In this document: positions 5,413 through 27,036 of the stretch, piece by piece
How positions within the stretch are numbered: the stretch's first letter is position 1
Layout: each line of letters opens with the position of its first letter
Origin: a virus
Virus record (IMG/VR): IMGVR_UViG_3300025927_000423
Coordinates: 1-27,410 of that record
Reading direction: 5' to 3' (one strand)
DNA: 27,410 bases
Notes under the pieces: generated by a model
Told to the model about the DNA's origin: nothing
The model's database searches: none
What the model saw: the letters and a program-made list of their open reading frames with translations, nothing else
Made by a program: the position numbers and the translations under genes

Positions 5413-5889
5413 CTAAGCCGAGCGAGCCGGGGTGCGCCGGTTCTTACGGCGCGGCTTTCCGCCGACATAGGCTTCGTCCATCTCCACGATCCCGCGCAGC
5501 AACTCGGTTCCGTTGTCGGCCATCGCTTTGCGGATGCGGTGCATCATGCTCCACACCGTAGGGCGGCGCATTTCAAGATCGCGCGCCGCTTGCATCGCAG
5601 ACAACCCTTTCTTGGCCGACAGCATCAGCGAGATCAGTAGGAACCAGCGCTGCAAATCGACGTGCGTGTTGTGGAAGATCGTGCCTACGGTCACGCTGAA
5701 CGACCGCATACACCGCTGGCACTTCCAGCGTGCCGCCGTCATCTCCCGGCTGCTGTCGCGGTTGTGAGAGACGCGATCGGCACCGCAATACGGGCAGATG
5801 GGGCTTTCGCCCCACCGTACCTGTTCCAGGTGCGCGATGCAGTCGTCTTTGGTCGGCCAGCGCCGGTAAACCTCAACGATGCTGGTCAT
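5413..5889 (-). CDS. C-terminally truncated IS1595-family transposase
   Basis: A 158-residue protein, about half the family length. It keeps the N-terminal zinc ribbon (Cys32, Cys35, Cys57, Cys60), the helical RWFLLISLMLSAKKGLSAMQ region, the HTH (AARDLEMRRPTVWSMMHRIR) and the first catalytic Asp (Asp138, in VEMDEAYVGGKPR), then stops after a basic tail. The second Asp and the final Glu/His region are absent, so it cannot be a working transposase. Its ATG at 5889 overlaps the stop of the PP-loop gene (ATGA), and the OMP-decarboxylase-like gene follows by 22 nt. I see no terminal inverted repeats. It may be a domesticated DNA-binding fragment or a relic that happens to be translated. ATG 5907 is an alternative start. 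Confidence 0.85.
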   Translation of the reverse strand: MTSIVEVYRRWPTKDDCIAHLEQVRWGESPICPYCGADRVSHNRDSSREMTAARWKCQRCMRSFSVTVGTIFHNTHVDLQRWFLLISLMLSAKKGLSAMQAARDLEMRRPTVWSMMHRIRKAMADNGTELLRGIVEMDEAYVGGKPRRKNRRTPARSA

Positions 5890-6602
5890 CCCCGACAGAT
5901 CCGACATTGCATTTCGTTGATGGGGTCGCGCGTATCACGCGGTATCCAGCCAGTCTCGAATTTCTCCCGCAAACCCTTGAGCGAGGTCGGCTGTGTGTCG
6001 CGGCGTTCCGACCGAAAAGTGTGTCCGGTCATCTCTTCCCAAGCCTCTCCTTCAAGATAACTGGGAAGATTTGTGTTCCACAACTCCCACCACTCGATTA
6101 GTCTTTGAAAGAAGCATTTCATGCAATCGGTACGACGCGGTATGCTGATGCCGCGCTCAGCGTTGAACCGGATAACGTCGGATTTTCCCATTCCGGCTTC
6201 CCGCAGCGGGAACATCATCTCGACGTTGGGAACCTGCTGGTAGTCGCCGCCTTCCCGCGCTTCCTCGTCGGCCCGCAACCCGACATAGAAACGCGCTGGC
6301 GAGTGTTGAGTCAGGTAAGCCGCGAACGGCTCGATCTTGAGTACACGGGTACACCAACGCTGCCGCCAATTTGGCAATGCGTTCCACTGCTTAACAAGCC
6401 CTGCCAAACCGCCAGGATGCATGACCGGAATAATTGGCCCGATCCGCTCGCGGAGCGAACGCATGTGAGCGAACCATTCTGCCGGCTCGTCGCCGGTCGG
6501 CGTGCAGACCCACTTGAAATTTATGTCCGGCCGCGTCTCTTTGAGCAGGACGGCCATGCATACGCTGTCTTTGCCGCCTGAGATGGCCCCGATGTGGTTC
6601 AT
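5886..6602 (-). CDS. PAPS-reductase / PP-loop ATPase family protein
   Basis: A 238-residue adenine-nucleotide alpha-hydrolase-fold protein. The PP-loop is SGGKDS (residues 8-13). Other family landmarks are WCTRVLKIEPF, the YVGLRADEEAREGG segment, and Cys pairs CMKC (about 160) and CRIC near the C-terminus. The E-C-G-x-H type motif of true CysH sulfate-assimilation enzymes is absent, so tRNA or DNA thiolation, or another nucleotidyl activation, is at least as likely as PAPS reduction. Such genes are common in phages and generally uncharacterised. It is first in its operon, with TTGACA-17-TATATT upstream and GAGG 8-9 nt before the ATG, and is coupled by ATGA to the next gene. Confidence 0.85.
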   Translation of the reverse strand: MNHIGAISGGKDSVCMAVLLKETRPDINFKWVCTPTGDEPAEWFAHMRSLRERIGPIIPVMHPGGLAGLVKQWNALPNWRQRWCTRVLKIEPFAAYLTQHSPARFYVGLRADEEAREGGDYQQVPNVEMMFPLREAGMGKSDVIRFNAERGISIPRRTDCMKCFFQRLIEWWELWNTNLPSYLEGEAWEEMTGHTFRSERRDTQPTSLKGLREKFETGWIPRDTRDPINEMQCRICRG

Positions 6603-14944: not shown

Positions 14945-15026
14945 TTACCATAAAGATTATGTGCGAAAGCACAAGCGTACTAAGAATGCATACGAGCAAA
15001 TATGGAAACAACAGGGCGGAAAATGA
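14871..15026 (+). CDS. Small basic protein (51 aa)
   Basis: A frame that overlaps the previous gene by 74 nt. The C-terminal half is strongly basic and helical (ISYHKDYVRKHKRTKNAYEQ) and ends QQGGK-stop, a tail also found on the next ORF. Its TGA overlaps the next ATG (ATGA), supporting translation. No strong RBS, so coupling from the upstream gene is likely. Function unknown. Confidence 0.5.
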   Translation: MRNAETLDQILDTDPNPPTIRRRISYHKDYVRKHKRTKNAYEQIWKQQGGK

Positions 15027-15241
15027 CCGAGGGCAAGTTTATGGGACGCCGAGTCTGCTCACCCAAATGCTCGAACGAAAACACAGTTGATCTGGATAAA
15101 CCACACCCGCCCTGCGCTAACGAAAGCTGCTGTGCGCCAGTGTTGCGGCGCTCCAATGAGGGATACACAAGATATCGCCTGCGGCGTTGCTGTTCACCCG
15201 AGTGCGCTAGCGCTAAATACAAACAACAGGGTGGAAAGTGA
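15023..15241 (+). CDS. Zinc-finger-like protein (72 aa), first copy of a duplicated module
   Basis: Cys-rich: a CSPKC pair near residue 12, then the module PPCANESCCAPVLRRSNEGY followed by TRYRLRRCCSPECA. The C-x(4-5)-C and C-x(3)-C pairs suit zinc binding. The module recurs in the next gene with the same LRRSNEG and LRRCCSPEC motifs. It ends QQGGK like the upstream ORF and overlaps both neighbours by 4 nt. Role unknown; nucleic-acid binding is a guess from charge. Confidence 0.65.
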   Translation: MTEGKFMGRRVCSPKCSNENTVDLDKPHPPCANESCCAPVLRRSNEGYTRYRLRRCCSPECASAKYKQQGGK

Positions 15242-15714
15242 CCGAGGACAAACATCCCCCCGGCAGGCCCCCAAAGCCAGTTGAAGAGCATCTGCCCTGC
15301 GCAAAGTGCCAGGGGCCGATGACAAAACGGGCTAAGGAATCTCATACCGGATTTGCAAGACGCCAATTCTGTTCGAATAAATGCGCAGGTAAATACAAAG
15401 TAAAGCCCGAGAGAGAACACCCACCATGTGCCTATCAAGGCTGTGGTAGGCCGGTATTACGGCGCTCCAATGAGGGCTTCACAAGATATCATTTACGGCG
15501 ATGCTGTTCGCCAGAGTGCGCCCAAGAGATTTCCGTGAAAGGCTCGTCCGAATGGTTTGCGAGGCGCCGCCAAGGGTTAGGCGAATGGCCTGACATAACC
15601 GGATCGAATATGAGCGGCCAACCGTTCGCCGCGTTCGACCGCGATCCGGGAGACGGCGGCCGGATGCGTGTACCGCGGCCCGCAACGTTCGTGGCCACCG
15701 AAGCGACTTCATAG
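15238..15714 (+). CDS. Two-module zinc-finger-like protein (158 aa, GTG start)
   Basis: GTG 15238 overlaps the upstream TGA (GTGA). Module 1: LPCAKCQGPMTKRAKESHTG with RRQFCSNKCAGKYK. Module 2: PPCAYQGCGRPVLRRSNEGF with YHLRRCCSPECAQE. Both follow a C-x(2-4)-C ... (F/C)CSxxC plan, suggesting treble-clef or ribbon zinc sites. The last 55 residues (after EWFARRRQGLGEW) are disordered. Module 2 is a near copy of the module in the previous gene. Small phage zinc-finger proteins of this type are uncharacterised. Confidence 0.7.
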   Translation: MTEDKHPPGRPPKPVEEHLPCAKCQGPMTKRAKESHTGFARRQFCSNKCAGKYKVKPEREHPPCAYQGCGRPVLRRSNEGFTRYHLRRCCSPECAQEISVKGSSEWFARRRQGLGEWPDITGSNMSGQPFAAFDRDPGDGGRMRVPRPATFVATEATS

Positions 15715-19996: not shown

Positions 19997-20994
19997 CCAT
20001 CTCGATCAGCGATAGGCTGCACCGATATGCCGCGACCCTAAACAAGACTTGGGCACATGACCGCAGCAAGACTGTCGGCGCGAGCGAGATTGGGCAATGT
20101 GCTCGAAAAACATTCTTTTCTAAACAGAATGCGCCTCGTGATGCTGATTATGAGGACGGTTTCGGAGCGCGGCTGCGCGGCAATGTGATTGAGGAGCACT
20201 ATTGGGAGCCAGGGCTGAGGGCCACTCTAGATGAGGGTGAGAGCCTTTTGTTTGCCGGCAATGATCAGAAAACATTAGAGAGAGGTTATCTTTCTGCCAC
20301 AACTGACGGATTGTTTGTAAGCAAGGCGTTTGATATCTGTATTAACCTAGACTGTAAGTCAATAGATCCGCGCGCCGACATCTCGAAAGAGAAATCTTCG
20401 CACCATTTTCAAGTACAGGCGCAGATGGGGCTGATCCGCGATTGCACCGAGTACAAACCAGACAATAGCATTCTGTCTTATGTGGATGCCTCATTCTGGG
20501 ACAAAATCACCGAATTTGTTATTCCATTCAACCCCCGCATCTACGCTGCCGCCCATGCCCGCGCCGAACGGATCATGACGGCGAGAGATGCTCTGGAATT
20601 GCCTCCGGAGGGAAAAACTGCTGGGGGCGGCGAGTGTCAGTGGTGCGCCTGGGCTTCGCATTGCGCCACCGTGACGATCACCGGGGTCCCGAAACGCTCA
20701 GATCCTATTAGCGATGACATCGCCGAGCAACTGCATGGGTTACGCGATGAAGAGCGGCGGCTTGCCGCTATCGAGGCCGAGGCAAAGGTTTCCCATGCCG
20801 AGGCATCAGAGAGTATCAAGCAATTCCTGCGGCAGATCAATGTGCGCAGGTTCGTGGGCGACGAATGGTCCGTGTCATACTCGATCGTAAATGGTCGGGC
20901 AACACTGGACATCGACGCGATCAAGGCGGCCGGCATTGATCTAGCACCGTACTACAAGACCGGCTCACAATCAGAGAGGTTGATAATTAAATGA
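19993..20994 (+). CDS. Cas4/RecB-like PD-(D/E)xK exonuclease with Fe-S-type Cys residues
   Basis: A 333-residue protein. Cys36 (GASEIGQCARK) and Cys215, Cys218, Cys224 (CQWCAWASHC) reproduce the one-plus-three Cys layout of Fe-S nucleases such as Cas4 and AddB. The nuclease core is visible as HYWE (H69-E72 region), TTDG (Asp105), LDCK (Asp120, Lys122) and the QAQ motif (141-143). The C-terminal third is a helical domain. In phages such enzymes act as 5'-3' resecting exonucleases for recombination with a DNA-annealing partner; the 22137-22874 gene is a candidate partner. Coupled to both neighbours by ATGA. Confidence 0.88.
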   Translation: MTISISDRLHRYAATLNKTWAHDRSKTVGASEIGQCARKTFFSKQNAPRDADYEDGFGARLRGNVIEEHYWEPGLRATLDEGESLLFAGNDQKTLERGYLSATTDGLFVSKAFDICINLDCKSIDPRADISKEKSSHHFQVQAQMGLIRDCTEYKPDNSILSYVDASFWDKITEFVIPFNPRIYAAAHARAERIMTARDALELPPEGKTAGGGECQWCAWASHCATVTITGVPKRSDPISDDIAEQLHGLRDEERRLAAIEAEAKVSHAEASESIKQFLRQINVRRFVGDEWSVSYSIVNGRATLDIDAIKAAGIDLAPYYKTGSQSERLIIK

Positions 20995-21260
20995 GCAACA
21001 GAGAACTTGTAATAGAACTCAAAATACCACTCGCAGGTGAGATGTTTGAAGACGCCGCTACTATTACCGCGGTGCAAGGTATATACGAGGCAATCAGCGA
21101 ACGCGCTGCGTCCGATTTGGAGGAAGGCAGCTATTCACTCCTGATCGAGACACCCACTTCTCGTAAGCCCCGCGGGCTTCGCTCCGACGCCGGCAAGCCG
21201 CGTGGGCCTCGCACCAAGAATAGCGCCAACGGGGCCGATGCGGAGACCGTGACGGCCTAA
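20991..21260 (+). CDS. Hypothetical protein with basic C-terminal tail (89 aa)
   Basis: The first 55 residues form a small alpha/beta unit (ELVIELKIPLAGEMF; a TAVQGIYEAIS helix; SYSLLIE strand). The tail is basic and disordered with two KPRG repeats. ATG 20991 overlaps the exonuclease stop. Last gene before the structured gap at 21264-21378. Function unknown. Confidence 0.65.
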   Translation: MSNRELVIELKIPLAGEMFEDAATITAVQGIYEAISERAASDLEEGSYSLLIETPTSRKPRGLRSDAGKPRGPRTKNSANGADAETVTA

Positions 21261-21263
21261 CGA

Positions 21264-21378
21264 TTATGCGGGGGAGGAGAGCTTCGGAGCACTAGCCGTC
21301 GTAGTGCTCATTTCTCGCAGCTTAGCTCTCATAAAGAAACAGGGATCTTCGACCCCTGCACGGCACTCCCCCGCATAA
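21264..21378 (+). ncRNA. Candidate structured RNA (three-way junction)
   Basis: This 147-nt gap is unusual in an operon where nearly every junction overlaps. P1: TTATGCGGGGGAG (21264-21276) pairs perfectly over 13 bp with 21366-21378. P2: GAGAGCT (21277-21283) pairs with AGCTCTC (21324-21330), continuing directly from P1. P3: GAGCACTA (21287-21294) pairs with TAGTGCTC (21302-21309), 7-nt loop GCCGTCG. P4: CAGGG (21340-21344) pairs with CCCTG (21354-21358), 9-nt loop containing TTCGA. No U-tract follows, so not a terminator. The strand is inferred from the operon. The layout recalls a tRNA-like fold but lacks a D-arm and standard T-arm spacing. It could be a phage ncRNA, a regulatory leader for the 21408 gene, or a processing site. 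Confidence 0.7.
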
Positions 21379-21407
21379 ACTGCAAATAGAAACTGGGAAA
21401 CAGGAAA

Positions 21408-22121
21408 ATGACAGAGCAAGACCTATCAGACATCTGGAGATTCGAATTACGGAAAGGGAACAGCAGTGATCCGCGTGATGGAGCGTGCCTTCTAGATGCG
21501 GTATCTTACATCGAGTACGGCGAGCTTGGCGATCACCCGCCGTGCGTCTGCCCGGTTCTGGCGGCGTTCGGGCGCGGGGTTAATGATGCCATGTCGCATG
21601 AGGGGCGGCAACGGCTCAAGATATTTATCCCGCGACTTGTCGGCACGGTCGATCCCGAAGCCGTTCAGCCACGCGCCGAATATCTGGCGTGGCAAGCGGT
21701 TCGCGTTTTCGCACCGATAGCGCTCGATGCGGCGGGGCTAACGATTATGGCCTCTGAACTGCGGCGGTTCAGAGGTTCGCTGAAAGAGGCCGCTGAGGCC
21801 GCGAGTGCCGCCGCCAACGCTGCCGCCGACGCCAATGCGGTCACCGCCGCCCTGACTGCCGCCGCCGCCAATGCGGTCACCGCCGCCCTGACTGCCGGGA
21901 CTGCCGCGACTGCCGTCAAGTGGGCCGCTGCCGCCGCCCCTATCAACGTCGCATGGGCCGCCGAGCATGCCGCCTCGAGGATCGCCGAAAGTGCCCCTGG
22001 CACTGCCGCGATTATCGCCGCGATGGAAGGCGCACTCGCGATCGGCAAGCAGGCCGAGCCCATCGAACCGACACGCATCGCTAGTGCGCAACGAACTTTT
22101 GCAGAAGCCGCAAATCTGTAA
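21408..22121 (+). CDS. Conserved hypothetical protein with Ala-rich repeat tail
   Basis: A 237-residue protein. The N-terminal 100 residues match a conserved family (DGACLLDAVSYIEYGELGDH, PPCVCPVLAAFGRGVNDAMS, then RQRLKIFIPRLVGT). The central 80 residues are Ala/Asn/Thr low-complexity, encoded partly by a 36-bp tandem duplication (21831-21896). Related phage proteins also carry Ala-rich tails. Function unknown. It follows the structured RNA, and its leader GGAAACAGGAAAATGACAG is repeated before the next gene. Confidence 0.75.
   Translation: MTEQDLSDIWRFELRKGNSSDPRDGACLLDAVSYIEYGELGDHPPCVCPVLAAFGRGVNDAMSHEGRQRLKIFIPRLVGTVDPEAVQPRAEYLAWQAVRVFAPIALDAAGLTIMASELRRFRGSLKEAAEAASAAANAAADANAVTAALTAAAANAVTAALTAGTAATAVKWAAAAAPINVAWAAEHAASRIAESAPGTAAIIAAMEGALAIGKQAEPIEPTRIASAQRTFAEAANL
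21831..21896 (+). repeat. 36-bp tandem duplication in the Ala-rich gene
   Basis: Two copies of a 30-bp identical sequence (21831-21860 and 21867-21896) are separated by GCCGCC, encoding NAVTAALTA twice. The exact DNA identity indicates a recent slippage or recombination event and a likely length polymorphism. Confidence 0.85.
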
Positions 22122-22874: not shown

Positions 22875-22883
22875 AATCAATAA

Positions 22884-22914
22884 GGGCGGAGACAGGGATT
22901 ATACGTCTCCGCCC
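22884..22914 (+). other. Perfect 10-bp hairpin between operon genes
   Basis: GGGCGGAGAC (22884-22893) pairs with GTCTCCGCCC (22905-22914) around an 11-nt loop, in the 65-nt gap after 22874. No U-tract follows. It may be an attenuator, an RNase barrier or a pausing site before the nuclease-like gene. Confidence 0.6.
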
Positions 22915-22939
22915 GATTAGACTCCGCACTAGGAATCTC

Positions 22940-25935: not shown

Positions 25936-26168
25936 CCCCGAATCATAGTGGGGTCAGTGGGGTCAGTGGGGTCGTTTCAGCGCTACGCGCGAAAATTCAA
26001 AATAAATGCATGAATCCGAAAAATACACGTAAGACGTATTTCATGCGTGATTCTCTAAGAAACGGGCAGAACGACCCCACTGACCCCACTGACCCCACTA
26101 TGGGGCGGTTTGAGCCATGTTGTGGGCGCGACGGCTGCTGGAAAGATATTCTATCAGAAGTTGGGTGA
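25914..26168 (+). CDS. ORF across the iteron region, doubtful
   Basis: GTG 25914 opens an 84-codon frame that reads through both arms of the inverted repeat (SGVSGVSGV and DPTDPTDPT). The C-terminus (GRFEPCCGRDGCWKDILSEV) is Cys-rich and could be a real short coding end, but the translation across the repeats looks like a by-product. It overlaps the primase gene by 22 nt. Confidence 0.35.
   Translation: MANFAVLTPNHSGVSGVSGVVSALRAKIQNKCMNPKNTRKTYFMRDSLRNGQNDPTDPTDPTMGRFEPCCGRDGCWKDILSEVG
25946..26100. repeat. Perfect 31-bp inverted repeat of GTGGGGTCA iterons (possible origin)
   Basis: The left arm 25946-25976 (TAGTGGGGTCAGTGGGGTCA and on) is the exact reverse complement of the right arm 26070-26100. 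Each arm carries three 9-bp units GTGGGGTC(A/G). The 93-nt loop is AT-rich and has its own nested pairs GAATC/GATTC and AAATAC/GTATTT. Iterons flanking an AT-rich segment next to a primase-helicase gene are origin-like. Similar GVSGVSGV/DPTDPTDPT stretches next to such primase genes are familiar to me from other phages and prophages. Confidence 0.8.
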
Positions 26169-26183
26169 GGGAGAGACAGGCTA

Positions 26184-26949: not shown

Positions 26950-27036
26950 GTGAAGAACGAGGCACGTAAATGGCCTGACTGGCGCACAGCCGATCCGAAC
27001 GGGCCGATCGAGCATGATCGGGATGGAGAGCAATGA
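26950..27036 (+). pseudogene. Detached C-terminal end of the DUF550 gene
   Basis: In frame with the preceding gene and starting GTG immediately after the amber codon, these 28 codons encode the conserved KNEARKWPDW block of DUF550 proteins. The end overlaps the next ATG by the usual 4 nt, confirming that 27036 is the ancestral gene end. Reinitiation at the GTG could make it as a separate peptide. Confidence 0.65.

Follow-up and report, generated by a model that had tools for sequence, protein, structure and literature searches.

The gap between two genes of a viral window (the whole stretch of 27,410 nucleotides analysed here) contains a strong fold at 21264-21378, which is real, falls into no described class and is confined to one phage lineage in the searches made. 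It is probably an ordinary structured operon spacer. As modelled, the element is tentatively read as an intercistronic structured segment of a phage polycistronic mRNA, a reading rated somewhat short of an even chance. The window corresponds to bases 1-27410 of the 92,132-base contig IMGVR_UViG_3300026023_000352, with the same sequence and coordinates.

The fold and its genomic setting

The MFE of 21264-21378 is -52.4 kcal/mol, compared with -33.5 +/- 4.1 for shuffled sequences (z -4.59). The whole 147-nt gap 21261-21407, with ends that are fixed by the flanking genes and independent of the fold, has an MFE of -55.7, which was equalled by 2 of 10,000 dinucleotide shuffles (z about -5.1). The predicted helices are listed in Table 1. 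A perfect 13-bp closing stem, a 7-bp continuation, an 8-bp hairpin with a 7-nt loop and a 5-bp hairpin with a TTCGA loop had been described in a sequence-only reading of this DNA, and each was recovered at the position given there.

Table 1. Predicted helices of the element and the ORFs on either side, in window coordinates
Feature	Coordinates	Strand	Basis
Gap containing the element	21261-21407	+	stop codon of ORF 20991-21260 to ATG of ORF 21408-22121
P1 5' strand, 13-bp closing stem, TTATGCGGGGGAG	21264-21276	+	predicted fold, inverted repeat
P1 3' strand, CTCCCCCGCATAA	21366-21378	+	predicted fold; perfect pairing with 21264-21276
P2 5' strand, 7-bp stem, GAGAGCT	21277-21283	+	predicted fold; stacked on P1
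P2 3' strand, AGCTCTC	21324-21330	+	predicted fold
P3 hairpin, 8 bp (21287-21294/21302-21309), 7-nt loop GCCGTCG (21295-21301)	21287-21309	+	predicted fold
P4 hairpin, 5 bp CAGGG/CCCTG (21340-21344/21354-21358), loop ATCTTCGAC with TTCGA	21340-21358	+	predicted fold
ACGGC, candidate pseudoknot partner of P3-loop GCCGT (21295-21299)	21360-21364	+	5 Watson-Crick pairs
ORF, 89 aa, function unassigned	20991-21260	+	no Pfam, PHROG, NCBIfam or PADLOC match
ORF, 237 aa, accessory gene of dissimilar phages	21408-22121	+	homologues in otherwise dissimilar phage contigs

A pseudoknot between the P3 loop and the linker is possible in the modelled structure. The chance level of the GCCGU/ACGGC pairing is 5% for the P3 loop and 12.5% across all pairs of unpaired segments. 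All of the predicted pairs (34/34) are Watson-Crick, while folds free of G-U pairs made up only 0.5-1% of the shuffles. On a 156-nt stretch, the opposite strand folds equally well (-58.5 vs -55.7). Owing to the all-Watson-Crick pairing and the equal fold of the opposite strand, an RNA structure and a DNA palindrome are indistinguishable from the fold.

P1 starts 3 nt past the stop codon of the 89-aa ORF, within a tightly packed chain of same-strand genes in which 19993-20994 matches RecE-like exonucleases (RecE/Cas4-like). The product of 21408-22121 has an alanine-rich, repetitive C-terminal part. No sigma-70-like promoter was recognisable on the + strand near the element, and no T-run follows P1 on that strand, where the stem is succeeded by ACTGCAAATAG. 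The + strand of the gap is also free of any terminator-type T-run site, in agreement with the earlier remark that the element has no poly-U tail and is not a terminator. With neither a + strand promoter nor a T-run, there is no sign that the element is transcribed as a unit of its own. When the whole gap is folded, the MFE structure leaves the Shine-Dalgarno region of 21408 essentially free of pairing.

Among windows sampled along the 92-kb contig about 1.7% reach z <= -4, so the element is one of the strongest folds and not a unique one. The window contains four separate perfect inverted repeats of at least 13 bp with spacers of 20-200 nt, against 0.08 expected per shuffled window; the remaining 65 kb of the contig showed no further repeat of this type. 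From about 15.2 kb to about 22.9 kb, every gap other than 21261-21407 measures at most 15 nt. The claim that it is the only long gap of the chain is thus valid up to about 22.9 kb and fails beyond, since structured gaps are also present at 22875-22939 and 25936-26183. The former contains a 10-bp hairpin, GGGCGGAGAC...GTCTCCGCCC (z -5.1), and is followed by an imperfect 14-bp inverted repeat (22938-22951/22976-22989) spanning the start of ORF 22940. The latter holds a 33-bp perfect inverted repeat (25944-25976/26070-26102; z -11.7), a stronger structure than the element at 21264-21378. This gap follows a primase/helicase gene, and its repeat has three AGTGGGGTC units per side with a 93-nt AT-richer spacer between them; it looks like the inverted iterons of a replication origin. 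The gap at 26950-27032 is unstructured.

Two further observations were made in the window. A minus-strand ORF (5413-5907), by eye an N-terminal fragment of an IS1595-type transposase, adjoins a PAPS-reductase-domain ORF (5886-6602). ORFs 15002-15241 and 15238-15714 have a duplicated cysteine-rich segment in common (about 56% identical).

Search for relatives

The element had been put forward as undescribed, and this was borne out: the fold is strong and no Rfam family matched it. In Rfam 15 no family reached the gathering threshold, and none appeared up to E 5 with the 241-nt stretch. ARAGORN detected no tRNA or tmRNA in the element, whose last hairpin is set seven bases apart from the closing stem; a tRNA-like reading proposed earlier was given up on these grounds. 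BLAST of the phage collection produced no match with the 1,131 bases around the element nor with the element alone, and BLAST of the plasmid collection produced no match to the element. It is present only in the 92,132-base contig and, in identical form, in a 7,659-base contig of the same phage. BLAST of 385 alphaproteobacterial genomes revealed no similar copy beyond three short matches judged to be chance, two of them 22-32 nt long and coding-looking (L215, L217) and one of 26 nt (L216).

A covariance model, R1, was built in effect from one sequence. It gave no credible match in 297 genomes from the order of a Bradyrhizobium MAG or in 398 genomes from the phylum of that MAG, and no match in 29 phage records reached via the terminase, most of them fragments. 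A match of 33 bits in one bacterial genome (L202) consisted of two adjacent ordinary intergenic hairpins with neither the closing nor the second stem. The genome samples were centred on the Bradyrhizobium MAG because of closing-stem matches there, and this may not be the lineage of the host. Moreover, filtering becomes stricter in searches of more than 40 genomes, at the cost of weak matches, and a diverged homologue could have escaped detection. Without a diverged homologue to compare for covariation, the proposal of a new structured RNA is neither supported nor refuted by these searches, and a new RNA class is not demonstrable.

What terminase relatives of 53-69% identity had in common, over the stretches read, was limited to the head module and to distant genes of the primase, nuclease and transposase-like kinds. 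Relatives sought via the helicase, RecE and the 89-aa ORF led to the same phage only. The 21408 gene was found at eight viral loci, two of which belong to the same phage; the other six are without the element. Where the region upstream of a 21408 relative could be read, the preceding gene was different and the spacer short, so the suggested cis-regulation of 21408 is not supported as a conserved trait of this gene family.

Searches with parts of the structure returned several candidates that were rejected. The exact 17-mer of the P4 hairpin occurs in viral contigs, beyond the two of the same phage, in five unrelated stretches, all lacking the closing stem. The P4-plus-junction pattern was matched by 57 other stretches, none of which scored with the model, and the closing-stem pattern in viral contigs yielded mostly palindromic repeats and coincidences. 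The closest look-alike by eye (L054) lies partly within the 5' end of an ORF, and with the model it reached only E 0.17. An integron attC site was considered on account of GCCTAAC before the stem and discarded because no GTTRRRY follows it; a retron ncRNA was set aside, as no reverse transcriptase was present among those contig proteins scanned (part of the set). Another reading set aside was a MITE derived from the IS1595-like fragment at 5413-5907, which had been recognised by eye. One viral contig (L077:163-910) carries four tandem palindromic units, GCGGGGGAG...CTCCCCCGC, about 210 bases apart.

Scanning GTDB for TGCGGGGGAG N77-105 CTCCCCCGCA identified at least 120 matches, mostly in Bradyrhizobium, Methylobacterium, Xanthobacter and Hoeflea, with a chance expectation on the order of ten as estimated from the size of the collection. 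The repeat with these arms (L082-L201) is 95-125 nt long and keeps an outer extension and an inner stem around a variable middle. Among the matches listed, a pyrimidine-rich outer extension of the CCCGCTT/AAGCGGG type is found in 114 of 119 copies and a G-rich inner stem, for example GGTGGGGG...CCCCCACC, in 102 of 119. The 10-bp core of P1 is identical to the repeat arms and lies at a spacing within 77-105 nt, a match that is not independent because the pattern was derived from the window itself. The outer extension is absent from the element, which is flanked by TAACGAT and ACTGCAAA, as is the inner G-rich stem; with both absent, the element was not filed as a member of the repeat. The common arms may be a coincidence or a distant relic. 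Among 61 genomes sampled from the order, the central Bradyrhizobium MAG was the only one with the pattern, at four places, and none had a control stem of the same composition, which indicates that the repeat family is patchy. The described Bradyrhizobium repeats Br-REP1 and Br-REP2 have other sequences (PMC5082802).

Candidate explanations

As an intercistronic mRNA segment, the element would sit where a recombination segment (the RecE-like exonuclease and the 89-aa ORF) meets the acquired gene 21408. Its GC-rich 13-bp stem could slow 3'-to-5' exonucleases or serve as a boundary for processing, and the RNA on either side of the stem would then decay or be expressed differently. Consistent with this are the strong fold and its place in a non-coding gap right after a stop codon in a packed same-strand chain. 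The site of ribosome binding for 21408 is left open in the predicted fold, two more gaps of the chain are structured, and 21408 is an acquired cassette common to otherwise dissimilar phages. The gap also provides what is expected of an mRNA-stabilising hairpin, namely a stable structure between co-directional operon genes. The puf intercistronic hairpin, as cited in PMC6238624, is a precedent, and transcribed REPs block 3'-5' decay (PMC5082802). What the analysis shows is how strong the fold is, where it lies and that no promoter or T-run is recognisable beside it on the + strand; co-transcription, an effect on decay and a biological role are inferred. Nevertheless, a barrier would not need anything as elaborate as a three-way junction, and the absence of G-U pairs together with the equal fold of the opposite strand is also compatible with a DNA palindrome.

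Such a palindrome could be a single-copy REP/MITE-like relic or a site that forms a hairpin in DNA; any action it had would be on DNA. Besides the Watson-Crick pairing and the symmetry of the two strands, the closing-stem core that equals the arms of an abundant Bradyrhizobium/Methylobacterium repeat argues for it. Nevertheless, this origin is unlikely, given a single occurrence in the 92-kb contig, none similar in the 385 genomes searched by BLAST, the missing outer extension and inner stem, and flanks that have no obvious target-site duplication. Chance folding of a GC-rich spacer is the least probable explanation, as 2 in 10,000 shuffles and helices nested inside a perfect 13-bp stem speak against it, although the 1.7% of contig windows that fold to a similar degree and a fold devoid of evolutionary support would be in keeping with it.

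The remaining explanations give the RNA a specific function. That the element is a new phage-private structured RNA (13-bp stem, three-way junction and pseudoknot), cut from the transcript or loading a phage NusG-type antiterminator, is decidedly unlikely. A discrete small RNA processed from the operon transcript and acting in trans, as a decoy, sponge or regulator, is about equally improbable: its closed, self-contained fold has sharp ends and possibly a loop-linker pseudoknot, but its strand bears no promoter or terminator motif, and neither an Rfam match nor a homologue was found. If the RNA were discrete or protein-binding, it would be a compact addition to the sparsely known phage RNAs and a possible target for the phage NusG-type antiterminator. 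The contig does encode a NusG-domain protein (30915-31442, or L025:3915-4442; PF02357, E 1e-7; PHROG antiterminator) with weak similarity to RfaH, under the NCBIfam cut-off, and the NusG paralogue LoaP uses a hairpin in the RNA (PMC12691694). That the element serves in cis for processive antitermination or attenuation, perhaps by way of this NusG/RfaH-type protein, is nevertheless quite improbable. Nothing connects the protein to the element. Proteins of the RfaH type recognise an element in DNA, and those used by LoaP sit in leaders; TTCG is present in the P4 loop without the C-G closure of a UNCG tetraloop, and no clear downstream terminator that would call for suppression was seen. A translational or riboswitch-like regulator of 21408 would be suitably placed just upstream of the start codon; it is very improbable, as the MFE structure leaves the ribosome-binding region accessible and homologues of 21408 are without the element. 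As an mRNA spacer, the element would be ordinary, yet an example of an acquired phage gene arriving with a structured junction.

Comparison with known systems

Like a tRNA or tRNA-like RNA, the element has a closing stem and a last hairpin with a TTCGA loop, but it lacks an ARAGORN call, a D-arm and CCA, and its last hairpin is joined to the closing stem by a 7-nt linker. The Bradyrhizobium/Methylobacterium repeat has the same 10-bp arms about 100 nt apart, whereas the element is single copy and without the outer extension and inner G-rich stem. With the dfn hairpin of LoaP it shares being a hairpin RNA of an operon in a genome encoding a NusG-type antiterminator; in contrast, it lies mid-operon, is much larger and has no C-G closed UNCG tetraloop, and its link to the protein is hypothetical. 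The closest parallels to the preferred mRNA spacer are the puf hairpin of Rhodobacter capsulatus and transcribed REPs. Although the element is, unlike these, a branched three-way junction, with a presumed transcription and a presumed effect on mRNA decay, it resembles them as a strong GC-rich intergenic operon structure directly after a stop codon.
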